Source of the DNA: a virus
DNA: 27,611 bases
Virus record (IMG/VR): IMGVR_UViG_3300037104_000354
Span: 1 to 27,611 of that record
Direction: 5' to 3' (one strand)
The notes beneath the pieces were generated by a model, which was given only the letters and a program-made list of their open reading frames with translations, made no database searches and was not told where the DNA came from. Made by a program: the position numbers and the translations under genes. Below are positions 3,177 to 24,363 of this stretch, piece after piece. Positions within the stretch are counted from its first letter, which is position 1; each line of letters opens with the position of its first letter.

Positions 3177-3664
3177 TGGACGCGTATCAAAAGTCATGCG
3201 GTCGAGTGTTTGGTCTAATCTGCCTCGGGCTGATCGTCTTATGCCTCTTCGTCATCTACGGGTGTGCTGCGGTTCACCCGGCAACAACGATGCCTTCAAT
3301 CACCCCGGTCCACGATCCAGTGGCCACAGTGAATCAGTCCTTGGCGTCGATCATCAAAGCCCTGATCCCTATCGGCATCCTCGGCTGGGTTGTCGCGGGT
3401 GGTGGGTTGGGCCTGTTCATTTATGGCCTGGTCTCCCTGGATAGACCTGTGGAACACATTGGCCTGCTGGTAGGATCAGCCGGGGCCGGCGTAGGTGGTC
3501 TCGCCTTAGTTGGCATCGTGGCCTTACCTTTTGCCACCTACGTGATCTGGGGCGGCATAGTCCTGGCCCTGGTGGGTGCCGGCTACGAAATCTACGTCAG
3601 GTTCTTCAAGGGTAAAACTTCTACCGTGAAGATTGTTCCGGTAACCATCAACAAGGTGATGTAA
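3176..3664 (+). CDS. Multi-pass membrane protein with lipoprotein-like N-terminus, unknown role
   Basis: A protein of about 162 residues that I cannot assign to a family. Three in-frame ATGs compete (3164, 3173, 3176). GGAG at 3166-3169 is best spaced for 3176; 3173 would give an ATGA overlap with the previous stop. The N-terminus has a hydrophobic stretch (residues 11-29) ending in VIYGC, which is close to a lipobox but has Tyr where a small residue is usual, so lipidation is uncertain. A Pro/Thr-rich linker (31-55) follows, then hydrophobic helices at about 62-88, 96-117 and 119-140, and a basic tail. The many glycines in the helices are notable. It could belong to lysis, to membrane remodelling or to superinfection exclusion; nothing in the sequence decides this. 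Its last base is shared with the next start (TAATG). Confidence 0.68.
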   Translation: MDAYQKSCGRVFGLICLGLIVLCLFVIYGCAAVHPATTMPSITPVHDPVATVNQSLASIIKALIPIGILGWVVAGGGLGLFIYGLVSLDRPVEHIGLLVGSAGAGVGGLALVGIVALPFATYVIWGGIVLALVGAGYEIYVRFFKGKTSTVKIVPVTINKVM

Positions 3665-3945
3665 TGGCTTGGACTAAGAAAGAACAACGTCGCCTTGAAG
3701 CCTTGGAAGAGTGGGTGGATGGCCTAGTCGGCCGGGTGGAAGTTCTTGAGAAACTGGTTACTAACTTGCGGGCAAAGCGAGTTGCCAAGTCTCGATTGAA
3801 CCTCTATCGGAAAGTCCAGCGAGGTTTAAACAGGGTCTTTATTCAGGACCCGCCTGAGAACGAAGTACCTCTGGATGCTCGGCCCGAGTCTTTGAAGCCC
3901 GTCGCCAAATATCTCGAACCTTTCAGTAATGTTGGTGGAAGATAA
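3664..3945 (+). CDS. Small basic coiled-coil protein, unknown
   Basis: A 93-residue protein whose ATG shares one base with the stop of the membrane protein before it (TAATG), so the two are probably translated in coupling. Residues 5-40 have a strong heptad pattern (RRLEALEEWVDGLVGRVEVL) and should form a coiled coil. The middle is rich in Lys and Arg (RAKRVAKSRLNLYRKVQRG), and the end is Pro/Glu-rich. There is no signal peptide or membrane segment. The short coiled coil next to a membrane protein suggests it may dock to its neighbour, but this is only an inference. It holds a GTTTAAAC site at 3824, read as TTA-AAC. I do not recognise the family. Confidence 0.6.
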   Translation: MAWTKKEQRRLEALEEWVDGLVGRVEVLEKLVTNLRAKRVAKSRLNLYRKVQRGLNRVFIQDPPENEVPLDARPESLKPVAKYLEPFSNVGGR

Positions 3946-18880: not shown

Positions 18881-19240
18881 CTACCTTTCAGAATGAGTAA
18901 TGAGATACGCGGCAGCTTTTGTCAAGAGGTCGGATCGTTCGTGGGCATTCCCAATCATCAGATTGCAGGACCGACAGAGTAATTGTCTGATCTGCCCTGT
19001 TTGATGGTTGTGATCCACACATAAGCCGCCTTCAGGATTCGTGCCGCCGCAAATCGCACAAACCCCATTCTGTTCGTTAAACAACTTTTCAAACTGTTCA
19101 GGTGTTATCCCGTACAGTTTTCTTCGTTCGCAAATCGTATTCGCTTTGTTCTGACAAGTTCGACAACGACGTATTTTATTGCTGGCCCTATAGTAGGCAC
19201 TCTCGTCTTTGGTAACTTTACAGGACGGACAAACACGCAT
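18881..19240 (-). CDS. HNH endonuclease, endonuclease VII family
   Basis: A complete 119-residue recombination endonuclease VII-type protein. The N-terminus has a zinc ribbon (C4-x2-C7 and C26-x2-C29), then the helix YGITPEQFEKLFNEQNG, the first zinc pair C61-x2-C64 (CAIC), the catalytic stretch VDHNH at 75-79, and the second pair C89-x2-C92 in LLCRSCNLMIGN. Members cut branched or double-stranded DNA. Small free-standing ones inserted in phage structural operons often act as homing endonucleases. It is wedged between the capsid gene (12 bases away) and the 332-residue gene (9 bases away), with its own GGAG. This position in a high-expression block, and a second fragment of the same family at 16137, both suggest mobility rather than a DNA-processing role in packaging. 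Confidence 0.85.
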   Translation of the reverse strand: MRVCPSCKVTKDESAYYRASNKIRRCRTCQNKANTICERRKLYGITPEQFEKLFNEQNGVCAICGGTNPEGGLCVDHNHQTGQIRQLLCRSCNLMIGNAHERSDLLTKAAAYLITHSER

Positions 19241-19252
19241 CAGTCTGCTCCA

Positions 19253-20371
19253 TTAGGCAGGCAACGCATTGTGCAGAACGAAGCCGGCCGTTCGGCGGTT
19301 GATGCACAAGTTGTTGTGCGAACCGTCAAGGAAGACCGTGAAGGTTGTGTGCTGACCACGATCAACCATGGGCTTCGATTCTTCCATCCAGTAACCTTCC
19401 TGCACGACGGGTTGAATCTTCGACCAGTCAACGCAGTAGATTGGATTCGGCTGGACGGACGCCTTGGCGGCACCCGCAGTAACGGTGAAGCCATCAAGCT
19501 GCGGAATGTAGACAACCGGCATCCGGTTGAAGTACACGCAACCTTCAAAGGCATGAAGCATCTTGCCCGCCAGGTCTTTCGGGGCAGAAGCGTCGTCCCG
19601 CTTATCAGCCAAATCTTCCAACTCGGTCACAACATCGTCAGCCGCATAGAGTTCAATCTTGCTGCCAACTTTATCATTGCCGGGCCGTTGCACGCCAGGA
19701 GCCGGATTGAACCGGGTTCGGCGAACAGCAGATCGGAGTTTGCGGAGCAGAACGTTGTCGATGCGGGTGTAAACATCCGCATAGTTATTCCACTTCGGTT
19801 CGGCGGCACCGTCAATGCCGGCCACGATTGTGCCAGTAGTGCCACCGGAATATCGCACAGTCTGACCATTGAAGCCGCCCGTGGTCGAGCCGTCATTCAG
19901 GAAGTTCAGATAGTACGGAATGCCGTAGGGGAACAACGTATCAGTCGCAGAAGTCGGAGTAGACCAACCACGCTGTTCAATCAATTCCGCGAGGTCCCAC
20001 ATGCGTTCAACACGGCGGGATTCCATCAGGTTGATGAAGCCCTTGACCGAGTTCTTGTTACGCAAGATTTCCAGAACGTCCCATGAATAATCGGTGCCGA
20101 TCTGCACCCAGGGGACGTTAATGACAAACTGGCTCTGATCGACCGTGGGCTGGTCAGTATCATAGAGCCGACGATAACGAGCACGACCATGCCGGTCGAG
20201 AATCACGTTTCGTTGAATAGAAGTACCGCCGTCAATCTTGCGGCTGTCTTCCTTGTAAATCTGGCAGAACTTATAATTCTGCGAATCCCACATAACCTCG
20301 AATTGACCCTTGGGAAGGTCTTTCAGGGTAGTGGCCAAAAGGTCAGTAAGGGCTGCTGCATCAACGCCCAT
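19253..20371 (-). CDS. Major capsid protein
   Basis: A 372-residue protein that should form the icosahedral shell. It directly follows the scaffold gene, is a typical length for an HK97-fold coat protein, and has mixed alpha/beta composition without low complexity. Features include an N-terminal helix (DAAALTDLLATTLKDLP), the long helix GFINLMESRRVERMWDLAEL that resembles the coat spine helix, a loop region rich in Gly/Thr (STTGGFNGQTVRYSGGTTG), the helix VLLRKLRSAVRRTRF, and a strand-rich end (FDWSKIQPVV-like region, TTFTVFLDGSHNNLCINRR). The assignment uses gene order and fold-like features; no motif alone proves it. It shares the promoter at 21575-21602 with the scaffold. The start has only a weak AGAGAG ribosome site. 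Confidence 0.82.
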   Translation of the reverse strand: MGVDAAALTDLLATTLKDLPKGQFEVMWDSQNYKFCQIYKEDSRKIDGGTSIQRNVILDRHGRARYRRLYDTDQPTVDQSQFVINVPWVQIGTDYSWDVLEILRNKNSVKGFINLMESRRVERMWDLAELIEQRGWSTPTSATDTLFPYGIPYYLNFLNDGSTTGGFNGQTVRYSGGTTGTIVAGIDGAAEPKWNNYADVYTRIDNVLLRKLRSAVRRTRFNPAPGVQRPGNDKVGSKIELYAADDVVTELEDLADKRDDASAPKDLAGKMLHAFEGCVYFNRMPVVYIPQLDGFTVTAGAAKASVQPNPIYCVDWSKIQPVVQEGYWMEESKPMVDRGQHTTFTVFLDGSHNNLCINRRTAGFVLHNALPA

Positions 20372-20401: not shown

Positions 20402-21499
20402 CTACGCGAAGGCTTTCTCAAGCCTGGCTTTAGTCGCCTTCTCCAGGTCTTCCCGACTTGCGTTGGGCTTGGAGAGTGATGACGTTCGGCCGTTTGGCTT
20501 GATAGTAACGGATCGTTCCCGTTGCTGAAGTTGCTTCGTGATAGCCGTGCGGACAGTTTTCTCTTTCACACTGCCAGCAATGGAGTCGTGAGCCAGGGTC
20601 ATGGCTTCTTCAAGGCCCATAGGGCGACCTTGCTGCCGTGAACCATAGATCAACGAATCAGCCATTTCCAGCACTTTCTGCCGCGTGCCCAATTGTTCTG
20701 GGGTCAGCTTGGCAGAATCTTTACCGTACGTTTCATTGTACGATTCCATTTCCTTGCCGCTGAAGAAGCTGTCGATCTGGCGTCCCAGCGTTTCAAGTTC
20801 CGCCTGCTGTTGACGTTTTTGTGATCCCTGGATAACCGGCATCAGACGATTGATTTCTTCAATCGCTTTGTTTACCGGACCAGCAATCGCATCGACCAAT
20901 GCTTCTTCACCATACTGCTTCTTCAGAGCCGCAGTGTCAACCGGCTTCAATGCCGTGGAAGTCGTGGTGGCTTCCTGACGTGCGGCAGGAGCAGCAGGGG
21001 CATCCTGTTGCGGCGTCACATGTCCCTGGCGGGCCAACCGGCCGGCCTGGGCAAACCCGGCGATTTCTTTCGCACGGGTCGTGTGAATCTTTGCCGCAGA
21101 CTGAACAAATTTATCGCCCTGGGTTTTTAACGCCTGGTCGATTTCTTCATCAGTCCATTCATACGCTTTCAGAGAGCGTCGGTATGCAGCAGGAAGGGTT
21201 GGTGCTCCCGAGGGTGCAGCAGCTTCCGGCTTTTCCTTGGCAATCTCTTTCTCTTCTTCAACGAGTTCTTCAGCCTCGTTTTCGACTTCAGGCTTCTCTT
21301 CAGCCTCGTCTTTGGCTGGTTCAGGATCAACATCAGTCACTGAATCATCAGCGTCCTCGAAGGCTTTGCTGAACTTGTCAGCAATTTTGCTTTCCAGAGC
21401 CCCCCGGTCAAATTCCACCGGGGCTTCCTTCGCTTCGGGCGAGGGAGAGGACTCGTTCGTAAATTCTATTTGTTCCTGCACTTCGGTCTCGCCAGGCAT
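20402..21499 (-). CDS. Capsid scaffolding protein
   Basis: A 365-residue protein immediately before the capsid gene. It has the composition of a scaffold: an acidic, disordered N-terminal third (residues 1-100, with long Glu/Asp/Lys runs), an Ala/Pro/Gln-rich centre, a helical region (IEEINRLMPVIQGSQKRQQQ and so on), and a short basic C-terminal helix, LEKATKARLEKAFA, at the last 14 residues. In P22 the C-terminal helix-turn-helix of the scaffold binds coat protein by basic residues, and this tail fits that role. The same TKARLxKAF pattern ends the small protein at 21947 and occurs in the protein at 22150. Expected to guide shell assembly and then leave or be cut. A sigma70-like promoter lies 76 bases upstream. 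Confidence 0.8.
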   Translation of the reverse strand: MPGETEVQEQIEFTNESSPSPEAKEAPVEFDRGALESKIADKFSKAFEDADDSVTDVDPEPAKDEAEEKPEVENEAEELVEEEKEIAKEKPEAAAPSGAPTLPAAYRRSLKAYEWTDEEIDQALKTQGDKFVQSAAKIHTTRAKEIAGFAQAGRLARQGHVTPQQDAPAAPAARQEATTTSTALKPVDTAALKKQYGEEALVDAIAGPVNKAIEEINRLMPVIQGSQKRQQQAELETLGRQIDSFFSGKEMESYNETYGKDSAKLTPEQLGTRQKVLEMADSLIYGSRQQGRPMGLEEAMTLAHDSIAGSVKEKTVRTAITKQLQQRERSVTIKPNGRTSSLSKPNASREDLEKATKARLEKAFA

Positions 21500-21516
21500 C
21501 TTGATACCTTTCGTTG

Positions 21517-21533
21517 CCTACCATATTGGTAGG
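21517..21533 (-). promoter_or_regulatory. Inverted repeat in scaffold 5' leader
   Basis: CCTACC and GGTAGG form a perfect 6-bp stem around ATATT, in the leader between promoter and scaffold start. It is too AT-poor in its tail to be a terminator. It could be an operator for a repressor, or an RNA hairpin near the ribosome site (AAAGG, about 8 bases before ATG). Confidence 0.45.
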
Positions 21534-21574
21534 GGTAAGTTAGGGTTGCTGCCATTCAGTCTCCCTTACACCTA

Positions 21575-21602
21575 ACTATACCACATTTCTGTGAAAAGTC
21601 AA
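21575..21602 (-). promoter_or_regulatory. Sigma70-like promoter driving scaffold/capsid genes
   Basis: Read leftward: TTGACT (-35, 21602-21597), 16-base spacer, TATAGT (-10, 21580-21575). Each box matches the consensus at five of six positions. It lies in the widest gene-free gap of the leftward operon (106 bases, 21500-21605), after the zinc-ribbon gene and about 76 bases before the scaffold start. This would let the host polymerase boost scaffold and coat expression. Confidence 0.75.
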
Positions 21603-21605
21603 ATG

Positions 21606-21947
21606 CTATTTTGTTTCCATGAAGCCAGCAGCCTTCAAAGCCTGCGTCTTCGCATGTCGGGATTTTGCGATGGGCACGCCGAACATGGGATCAGCCGGAT
21701 CGTCTGAACAGTCCACGTCAGGGCATTGTTGTTTAAACGCTCTCACGTCAGCCATGTCTTCCATGGCGATTGAGAACATTTCAATCGGCTTCCTGAACTC
21801 TTTGTGAGTCGTGTGGGGCAAGCTCACCTGCTTCTTGTACGTCGATTCCTCACATGCGGGGCAGACGGTGAGATCAGGTTTGAACATCGAATGAACTTCG
21901 ATATCCTGATGTCCGCATTCGCTACACACGTAATCGTATAAAGGCAT
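21606..21947 (-). CDS. FmdB-type zinc-ribbon protein
   Basis: A 113-residue protein beginning MPLYDYVCSECGH with C8-x2-C11 and C29-x2-C32 (VCPAC), the four-Cys zinc ribbon of the FmdB family. The FmdB-type domain occupies residues 1-40. The rest is charged, with a helix FRKPIEMFSIAMEDM and a C-terminus KSRHAKTQALKAAGFMETK. In bacteria FmdB proteins are small putative regulators. Phage members sit near packaging and capsid genes with no proven role. Its start shares one base with the stop of the previous gene (TAATG), with GGAG seven bases before it. The C-terminal segment loosely resembles the tail motif of the neighbouring proteins (see findings). A GTTTAAAC site is at 21731. Confidence 0.78.
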   Translation of the reverse strand: MPLYDYVCSECGHQDIEVHSMFKPDLTVCPACEESTYKKQVSLPHTTHKEFRKPIEMFSIAMEDMADVRAFKQQCPDVDCSDDPADPMFGVPIAKSRHAKTQALKAAGFMETK

Positions 21948-22150
21948 TATGGTCTCCCTAAGTTTGAAAATGCTTTCTTCAACCGGGCTTTGGTCTTGCG
22001 ATGAAACTCCGCAGTCTTATCAGTCTTTCGCTCGGGAAGTTTGGCGTCACCCGTGGACTTGTTCCATTCATCCACGTCTACGCCCTGCTTCTCCAATTTG
22101 TCGCGGTTGGCGTTGAAGTAACGACGTTGTGCTTCGCTCTTGTACGGCAT
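21947..22150 (-). CDS. Small basic conserved phage protein (PYKSEAQRRYF type)
   Basis: A 67-residue protein that begins MPYKSEAQRRYFNANRDKL and continues KQGVDVDEWNKSTGD, a pattern I know from small conserved proteins encoded in the packaging region of many phages; no function is established. The C-terminus FHRKTKARLKKAFSNLGRP is strongly basic and shares TKARLxKAF with the end of the scaffold. TAATG junctions link it to both neighbours, so the three small genes are probably translated together. It may bind DNA or the coat interior; both are inferences. There is no zinc site, membrane helix or signal peptide. Confidence 0.72.
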   Translation of the reverse strand: MPYKSEAQRRYFNANRDKLEKQGVDVDEWNKSTGDAKLPERKTDKTAEFHRKTKARLKKAFSNLGRP

Positions 22151-22416
22151 TAGAACTCCGATTCATTGGCCTCTTCAGCCTTGCCCGTGTCGTTGGAATT
22201 AAAGGCCTTCTTCATTCGGCTCTTTGTGGATTTCTCCAAATGCTTCCTGGCCATCTTCTCGGCGTCAACACCGTGCTGATTTCGGTCAGCCAAATGTTTC
22301 ATCGCCGCCTTATGCCGCTTCGGATCAGACCTGATCTCCGCATGCTTCTGAAGCGTATCCGCGTCAGAAGGTGTGTGATATCCGGGGTCCGTGCCACTGT
22401 CCTGTACGTCAATCAT
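22150..22416 (-). CDS. Small charged helical protein after portal
   Basis: An 88-residue protein, starting nine bases after the portal stop with AAGGA at a suitable distance. It is very rich in Lys, His, Asp and Glu. Residues 20-65 should be helical (KRHKAAMKHLADRNQHGVDA), followed by ARKHLEKSTKSRMKKAFNS and a short acidic tail. The segment TKSRMKKAF matches the scaffold and the next small protein. I do not recognise a family. Its position between portal and scaffold, and the shared motif, suggest a head-assembly or head-internal protein. Its stop overlaps the next start (TAATG). Confidence 0.65.
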   Translation of the reverse strand: MIDVQDSGTDPGYHTPSDADTLQKHAEIRSDPKRHKAAMKHLADRNQHGVDAEKMARKHLEKSTKSRMKKAFNSNDTGKAEEANESEF

Positions 22417-22425
22417 GATGCTTCC

Positions 22426-24363
22426 TTAAAACGCATTGGCATTTGCCAACGCCGGCTTTTGGGCCGGGGGATTAAACGCGTGTCTAAAAACTGGATTGAG
22501 GGCACGCTGAGCCTCATTCGCCCCTTGCTGTTCTTCCTGATGTTGCAACATTCCCTGGCCGGGAGGGGCCCCCTGAACTTGACCAGGCTGACCGTTCTGC
22601 AACATGCCGTTCATCAGTCCCTGATTCGGCTGAGCGGGCTGTCCTTTCGATTGGGCCATCTGGGGACCCATCATCATCTGCATCTGCATGGTCTGTTGGA
22701 ATTGAGGATCGAAGAGAACCTCGTCCATCCACTCGATGCCGCTGTCCTTAGCCATCCGCAGCATCATCGCCACGGGACTGAAAGGAATACCCATGCCCAT
22801 AAAGATTTGAGCCGCCGCTGCAATCGCAGGCATAATTTGCTGGCAGAAAGCCATGGCCTGCTGTAGACGAACTTTGCTATCGACTCGGCCCATTGACTCC
22901 GGTTCAATCTTGAACATGAAGTCGATGAAGTCACCGCGACGAGCCTCGGGTGTGAGGATCACCTGAACGTCTTGCATGATCGGCATGCCCGGCATAATTG
23001 GCTGACCATTGGGCCCGAGGATTGGAGGACCCTGCATTTCCTGCCGGCGAACCAGAGGAATTTTCATGAGAGGATCAGTATGGAAATACCACGCTCGTTT
23101 ACGAGCCTCCGATGCAGCCATCTTGTAAACGAGGTCCTTCATGTCCTCCAGGCCAATGCTGGCGTTTTGTTGAAGGATGTTCGCGGCCGTGGCTGTCTTA
23201 CCCGAGACCGACAAACCACCGATCTGGTTGGGGTTCGCAGCCATCATGTTGAACCAACCCTGGAGGGCATCCAGGTGATGTTCATTGGAGTTCTGCTGGC
23301 CACCGAAGCTGAGGATCTTCACGTTATCAGGATCGTCCACAGCAATGGCCTCGCCGTCGCCGGCATTCTTCAGTTGTTCGGCATCATCTGACCCTGCACG
23401 CTTGTACGTCGTGATGTCCTTCTGGCGTTCAGCCTGCTCTACGATTTTCTTCGCCATGCGATTTGCAAGAACGTGAAGATCGTACCACACGCCCACAAGA
23501 GGTATAGGCATCGGGTTACCGGGCATGGGAGGAGTAAGGCTAAGAATAGTATACGGCCCTTCTTTGACGCCATAGTAATCCTCCACTCGTAAGTAGTCAT
23601 CCACCGATGTCTCGCTGGACGCCGGCACAGTCACAATGGCGTTAGCACTCGGCACCCAGATTTCGCAAATTTCAACATCGTCTTCCAGGTCATAGTTGTC
23701 GTCGATCTGGATGTTACGCATGGACAACTCGGAGGCATCCGAATCTTTAGTCCTGTCCCCTTTACGTGGAAGTTGTTCAATCAGTTCGTTGTTGTAGAGC
23801 CCTGAGTCCAGGAGCATCTTTCTCGGCACTACGATCTTGTCGCCCATAAACTTGGCGTCCCGGAACATGCTGTCCTTGCATGAGGGGTCCACAACGAAGT
23901 TGTCAAAGTCCACAGCTTCGGTATATACCGTCCCTGGATCAATCTGAAGTTCGTCGTCGATCCCATAGATCGTATCACTCTGGGCGAGGCCAGTCTTCAT
24001 AATCCCCAGGGTGAACAGAGCGTCCACAATCACCCGCCGATATGTGTTGCATACGTCGATCTTCATATCATGTTGGTCCAAAGCCAGGCCGAGAAGATTT
24101 GCGTATTCCCGGACGGCCATATATGGAGTCATGATCGTGTGCTTGGGGAAGTTCATCACGATGGTTGGCACCAGGATTCTGATCGCGTTAAAGATCAGGT
24201 TCAATGGAGCCGTACCGACTTCGCCCTCTACGCGGTCATAGTAGGCCCCGGCATATTCACGAAGGAAAAACACGCGAGCATTCCGAAAATTGGCCAGCCG
24301 GTCAAAGCCGCGTTGAACAGCTTCCTGCACTTTGCGTGGCGAAACCATATCTGTATAACTCAT
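22426..24363 (-). CDS. Portal protein
   Basis: A 645-residue protein right after the large terminase, sharing an ATGA junction. It should form the dodecameric ring for DNA entry. Features seen: RVFFLREYAGAYYD and the region FNAIRILVPTIVMNFPKHT near the N-terminus, DYLRVEDYYGVKEGPY in the wing, the long helix WYDLHVLANRMAKKIVEQAE as in portal stem helices, the segment GGLSVSGKTATAANILQQ, and ASEARKRAWYFH. Residues from about 550 on are Met/Gln/Pro/Gly-rich and disordered (MQMQMMMGPQMAQ, GQPGQVQGAPPGQGM), perhaps a barrel or a flexible inner tail. Length is in the normal portal range. Gene order and pattern support the call; no single motif is diagnostic. Confidence 0.83.
   Translation of the reverse strand: MSYTDMVSPRKVQEAVQRGFDRLANFRNARVFFLREYAGAYYDRVEGEVGTAPLNLIFNAIRILVPTIVMNFPKHTIMTPYMAVREYANLLGLALDQHDMKIDVCNTYRRVIVDALFTLGIMKTGLAQSDTIYGIDDELQIDPGTVYTEAVDFDNFVVDPSCKDSMFRDAKFMGDKIVVPRKMLLDSGLYNNELIEQLPRKGDRTKDSDASELSMRNIQIDDNYDLEDDVEICEIWVPSANAIVTVPASSETSVDDYLRVEDYYGVKEGPYTILSLTPPMPGNPMPIPLVGVWYDLHVLANRMAKKIVEQAERQKDITTYKRAGSDDAEQLKNAGDGEAIAVDDPDNVKILSFGGQQNSNEHHLDALQGWFNMMAANPNQIGGLSVSGKTATAANILQQNASIGLEDMKDLVYKMAASEARKRAWYFHTDPLMKIPLVRRQEMQGPPILGPNGQPIMPGMPIMQDVQVILTPEARRGDFIDFMFKIEPESMGRVDSKVRLQQAMAFCQQIMPAIAAAAQIFMGMGIPFSPVAMMLRMAKDSGIEWMDEVLFDPQFQQTMQMQMMMGPQMAQSKGQPAQPNQGLMNGMLQNGQPGQVQGAPPGQGMLQHQEEQQGANEAQRALNPVFRHAFNPPAQKPALANANAF

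Follow-up and report, generated by a model that had tools for sequence, protein, structure and literature searches.

How does a set of small, mutually unrelated proteins encoded among the head genes of a phage come to carry the same C-terminal tail as the protein in the scaffold position of that phage? The head-gene locus of virus record IMGVR_UViG_3300037104_000354 raises this question; the window, by which we mean the whole stretch of DNA analysed, comprises 27,611 nucleotides, and its minus strand encodes, in order, TerL, portal, P88, P67, zinc ribbon, putative scaffold and MCP. Scaffold ends that bind coat protein have been described in other phages. In P22, a C-terminal helix of the scaffold is reported to bind coat (PMC9965877), and pieces of the scaffold gp8 covering residues 141-303 or 238-303 are reported to suffice for loading fused cargo into capsids (PMC9962691). 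In 80alpha, the C-terminal helix of the scaffold is described as binding the coat N-arm, with the CpmB protein of the satellite SaPI1 using the same element and the two C-termini being swappable (PMC5644958).

Results

The putative scaffold and its genomic setting

The 365-aa protein encoded at 20402..21499 on the minus strand is probably the scaffolding protein, as judged from gene order and from an all-helical AF2 model with disordered tethers: it shares with tailed-phage scaffolds a gene directly upstream of the major capsid protein (MCP) gene, a helical make-up and flexible ends, and in the relatives, too, a putative scaffold gene precedes the MCP gene. It had no Pfam or PHROG match and only chance-level matches in a PDB profile search, and the best named scaffold in BFVD appeared at E 0.027. 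The putative MCP (19253..20371, minus strand), the candidate docking partner, is assigned from its position after the scaffold and from structure; it is strongly conserved, gave no match in a PDB profile search and has a low-confidence AF2 model whose fold resembles phage capsids only weakly. Directly downstream of its gene in the window lies an endonuclease VII-like gene (18881-19240).

With the MCP as seed, 41 loci were retrieved from IMG/VR, and a handful of more distant ones came from a second seed. No relatives of the scaffold, the MCP, the portal, P88, P67, an F1 protein or an F3 protein (families as defined below) were found in INPHARED phages, and none of the MCP in GTDB genomes, so that these searches yielded neither a host nor a cultured relative. 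All sequences are metagenomic, and the gene calls for small ORFs are mechanical. The interval between portal and scaffold holds extra genes in L001, L002, L004, L016, L028 and L038, by eye HNH/endonuclease-like CxxC proteins and larger enzyme-like proteins.

A specific tail shared by the scaffold and two nearby small proteins

The putative scaffold ends in LEKATKARLEKAFA (minus strand), and nearly all of its homologues end in LE..[VT]...[LM]..[AV]F. The copy of the motif within this end, LEKATKARLEKAF (residues 352-364; 20408..20446, minus strand), lies inside a predicted helix spanning residues 349-364. Two small proteins encoded nearby bear the same element. P88 (22150..22416, minus strand; family F1), the product of the first gene after the portal, with homologues at the same place in relatives, contains LEKSTKSRMKKAF (residues 60-72; 22201..22239, minus strand), which is followed by an acidic end of 16 residues. 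P67 (21947..22150, minus strand; family F2) combines an MPYKSEAQRRY mini-domain with the tag FHRKTKARLKKAF (residues 49-61; 21968..22006, minus strand) and ends in ..RKTKARLKKAFSNLGRP. The motif reads L-E-x-x-[VT]-x-x-[RG]-[LM]-x-x-[AV]-F; variation in the scaffold alignment was too great for scanning with a pattern, and positions 5, 9 and 13 are nearly fixed in scaffolds and small-protein tags alike, the tag Phe being invariant in 13 sequences of family F1.

Using only the 13-mer of the window scaffold as query, we searched 13 related contigs, whose 3,353 six-frame ORFs contain 318,684 13-mers. After the scaffold itself, P88 (BLOSUM 49) and P67 (BLOSUM 40) were the top two matches, and the highest score outside scaffolds and tagged small proteins was 30. 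Ungapped, the scaffold 13-mer is identical to that of P88 at 9/13 positions and to that of P67 at 8/13. The tails are thus where the original prediction had placed them and as similar as it had counted, and the search ranks speak against chance. A profile trained on the scaffold tails of relatives, from which the window scaffold and all small proteins were left out, matched these contigs 25 times with at least 17 bits, in 13 scaffolds, 12 small proteins and nothing else. P88 scored 29.8 bits, P67 17.0 and the best ORF outside these families 14.9. With a slightly larger training set P67 dropped to 15.5 bits, which makes it borderline by the profile alone; its tag is identified by the profile together with the 13-mer search. 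In a control of 80 unrelated phage loci with 2,919 ORFs, none reached 17 bits and one reached 15.

A weaker copy had also been claimed for the zinc-ribbon protein encoded between P67 and the scaffold (21606..21947, minus strand; FmdB-like, Pfam Zn_ribbon_8). That claim fails: the protein ranks about 1,126th of 3,353, its best window is a stretch other than the proposed HAKTQALKAAGF, and its end belongs to a conserved motif of its own homologues, NRxxKxxALxxxGFxER.

Weaker resemblances were seen elsewhere. The portal protein, which is SU10-type (22426..24363, minus strand), has a tail, LNPVFRHAF (22474-22500), that scores without significance as a full copy and is related to the motif weakly at best. 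Some other portals (L026, L001) have a weak version near the C-terminus, and it is only in part of the relatives that the motif is clear. The stretches 16 residues from the ends of the L001, L002 and L026 portals, IRKGMSHAF, LRKGMTHAF and VKAGMTRAF, resemble the tag core, each being the top match within its portal. Far from the head genes, an orphan ORF of 93 aa (3664-3945, plus strand) contains SRLNLYRKVQRGLNRVF (3802-3840), followed by an end of 34 residues; this possible extra client scores 14.9 bits, just above noise, and no relatives of it were found.

Two copies on one scaffold

The window scaffold carries a second, N-terminal copy of the motif that the original prediction had overlooked, LESKIADKFSKAF (residues 35-47; 21359..21397, minus strand), which scores 18.1 bits with the C-tail profile. 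Most scaffolds have their second-best profile match at residues about 20-45, with scores in relatives of 22.5 (L021), 21.2 (L025) and 19.2 bits (L029). In the AF2 model of the window scaffold (pLDDT 75), low-confidence linkers part the helices 32-48 and 349-364 from the helical core, and both copies are accordingly predicted to be isolated helices on disordered tethers. Counted with their flanks, the N-terminal copies have a mean charge of -3.4, the C-terminal copies of +2.0 and the small-protein tags of +3.3 to +4.7.

Because the motif also occurs at the scaffold N-terminus, coat protein need not be the partner of the tails. The main alternative to docking on coat is docking on the scaffold: its ends would pair with one another or with the core, the basic tails of the small proteins would bind the acidic N-terminal copy, and the small proteins would enter as clients of the scaffold. 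The presence of two oppositely charged copies on one scaffold, with small-protein tags more basic still, and the weak version of the motif in some portals fit this arrangement, but complementary charge is in itself weak evidence, and in the systems described the scaffold C-terminus is reported to sit on coat; we consider scaffold docking rather unlikely.

One tail on several unrelated domains

The tag terminates at least four unrelated families of small proteins: F1 (P88-like), F2 (P67), F3, which has a WIKGAIKHPGALH domain, and F5, which has an MPLTAKGK domain; L023 encodes a possible further family, F4. Tagged proteins are 56-116 aa long and number up to three per genome, and the tagged F5 gene of L032 sits downstream of the MCP gene. 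Outside the clade the domains are common (99 relatives of F2, 508 of F5 and 445 of F3 in IMG/VR), and those from the phages sampled there end without the tag. Among distinct sequences the tag is found in 1/51 of F5 and 4/50 of F3, every bearer coming from this clade, and among 95 small-domain proteins of the F2, F3 or F5 type none but those of clade members was found to have a tail in common with a scaffold. The P67 domain of the window is 65-74% identical to the tag-less outside forms compared and 34-62% identical to tagged forms of the clade. Since it is closer to the former, tag and domain appear, from identity rather than from a tree, to have been joined more than once.

These distributions also bear on the idea that the tails are generic basic amphipathic C-terminal helices that converged in binding DNA, RNA or something else, with no partner in common. 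The small tags are basic, and the native end of F3, TLKGL, already fits half of the motif, AFPK having been added in clade members. Against such convergence stand the empty control at 17 bits, the near fixation of the same three positions in scaffolds and small tags, and the lack of the tail in the sampled outside relatives of these same basic domains. We regard it as very unlikely.

The number and variety of bearers further bear on whether the small proteins might be accessory scaffolds or assembly regulators rather than cargo, competing for sites on coat and tuning assembly or capsid size as SaPI1 CpmB does. CpmB, which is described as having 72 residues and sharing the coat-binding C-terminal element of the scaffold (PMC5644958), is of compatible size. 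It is, however, the product of a satellite that competes with its helper, whereas the genes studied here stand in the phage's own head operon, and several unrelated domains, up to three in one genome, suit recruitment better than a single size-determining role. This makes a purely regulatory function improbable.

The operons of L021, L029, L030 and L041 encode no tagged small protein, though their scaffolds have the tail, so the small proteins are dispensable. The tag is also missing from F2 of L014 and from F2 and F3 of L004-type genomes. In the latter (G002:14982-15469, minus strand), the tag-less F2 and F3 proteins share another tail, AHPDSS.H...GHLR+.G, with no further occurrence in that contig. 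A phage group unrelated to this one (L131:6001-6695, L132, L128) has adjacent small proteins, one with an F2 domain, that share a C-terminal LPGKII.AK.K, with three bearers in L131 and in L132 and two in L128; the 384-aa protein in the scaffold position of L131 is without it.

History of the tag

A duplicated gene end had been put forward as an alternative origin of the similarity, in which case the tails would have been copied from the end of the scaffold and would persist as functionless passengers. The genes are adjacent and the tags of L325 are nearly identical, as copying would have it. The tags of the window, however, have 2-3 identical codons at 7-9 identical residues, and the nucleotide identity of their DNA equals the expectation from codon shuffles with random synonymous codons. 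A recent duplication is unlikely because synonymous sites differ as much as these shuffles predict. In addition, the tag is conserved while the remainder of the small proteins diverges, and one of the tagged genes is situated downstream of the MCP gene. We find it scarcely credible that the tails are functionless copies; the similarity is, as the codons suggest, one held at the protein level or one reached by convergence.

Whether each tag varies together with its own scaffold could be asked across the relatives. Tags matched their own scaffold better than shuffled ones (permutation p 0.0025 for 14 representative genomes, relatedness not corrected), and the same test gave p 0.027 when we left out the window, which had been chosen for looking striking. 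An earlier run on redundant genomes gave p 0.036, its genome set differing from that of the 0.0025 run, which used representatives plus added genomes. The clearest case, a distant one, is L325, with KVRKKMKSTF against KVRNKMKKTF; several genomes (L001, L033, L039) show no match between tag and own scaffold. The co-variation that the original prediction had called for is thus present but weak, and the signal for a strict coupling of each tag with its own scaffold is modest.

Discussion

We consider it probable that the shared tail is a docking module for procapsid assembly, a helix that serves the scaffold and has also been attached to proteins of the head interior or accessory to the head. The scaffold would bear this short amphipathic helix on flexible tethers at its C-terminus and, in a more acidic copy, near its N-terminus; the small proteins whose genes neighbour those of portal, scaffold and capsid would bear it in a more basic C-terminal version. 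The tails of the small proteins would bind the site of the scaffold helix, most likely on the coat protein, at its N-arm or on its inner side, and the small proteins would thereby be taken into the procapsid as minor components, either internal or accessory to the head. Coat is our favoured candidate for the partner because it is what the C-termini of scaffolds bind in P22, 80alpha and herpesviruses, and because CpmB and engineered P22 cargo can use that element. The procapsid-tag reading of the original prediction is thus retained for a tail that is conserved, present on several unrelated small head-side proteins, predicted to be helical and appended in appearance, and is given up for the zinc-ribbon protein.

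A bolder version is that one portable docking helix serves as the general head address of this clade, found at either end of the scaffold and in some portals and added independently to four or more unrelated small proteins, gain of the tail being enough to admit a new protein to the virion; we find this plausible but lean slightly against it. If the docking reading is right, phages could recruit new head proteins by joining existing mini-domains to a docking helix of the scaffold type, and the role of three widespread phage mini-domains would become testable. The tail would also help to pick out, by sequence, head-interior proteins among small genes whose function is unknown, and would supply a naturally occurring C-terminal tag of 13 residues with which cargo could be loaded into capsids.

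A small protein with the coat-binding tail of a scaffold, SaPI1 CpmB, and short capsid addresses, as in T4, are already on record. For a scaffold-type tail on several unrelated small proteins of a phage's own head operon, we found no precedent in a limited check of the literature (titles, abstracts and chosen passages). The tails resemble the helix-turn-helix of P22 gp8 in being an amphipathic, basic C-terminal element of a scaffold, as described for P22 (PMC9965877, PMC9962691); there the cargo fusions are engineered, whereas here a single predicted helix stands on natural small proteins. The capsid-targeting sequence of T4 is likewise a short conserved terminal peptide of small internal proteins that is reported to be portable to foreign proteins, but it is N-terminal, about 10 aa long and reported not to be conserved in other core proteins (PMC9958956); the tags described here are C-terminal and common to the putative scaffold. 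In herpesviruses, the protease precursor of the UL26/UL26.5 pair is a second protein with the coat-binding C-terminus of the scaffold, an arrangement described as arising from overlapping genes (PMC12474303), unlike the separate genes and unrelated bodies found here. The nearest precedent is the pair formed by the 80alpha scaffold and SaPI1 CpmB, in which a scaffold and a small protein are likewise described as sharing a C-terminal helix element. There the small protein belongs to a satellite and redirects capsid size, and the element includes an RIIK hook that is absent here, where the tails inspected stop a few residues after ..[AV]F; the tail of the present clade is phage-encoded, has a motif of its own known from sequence, and is borne by several unrelated families.
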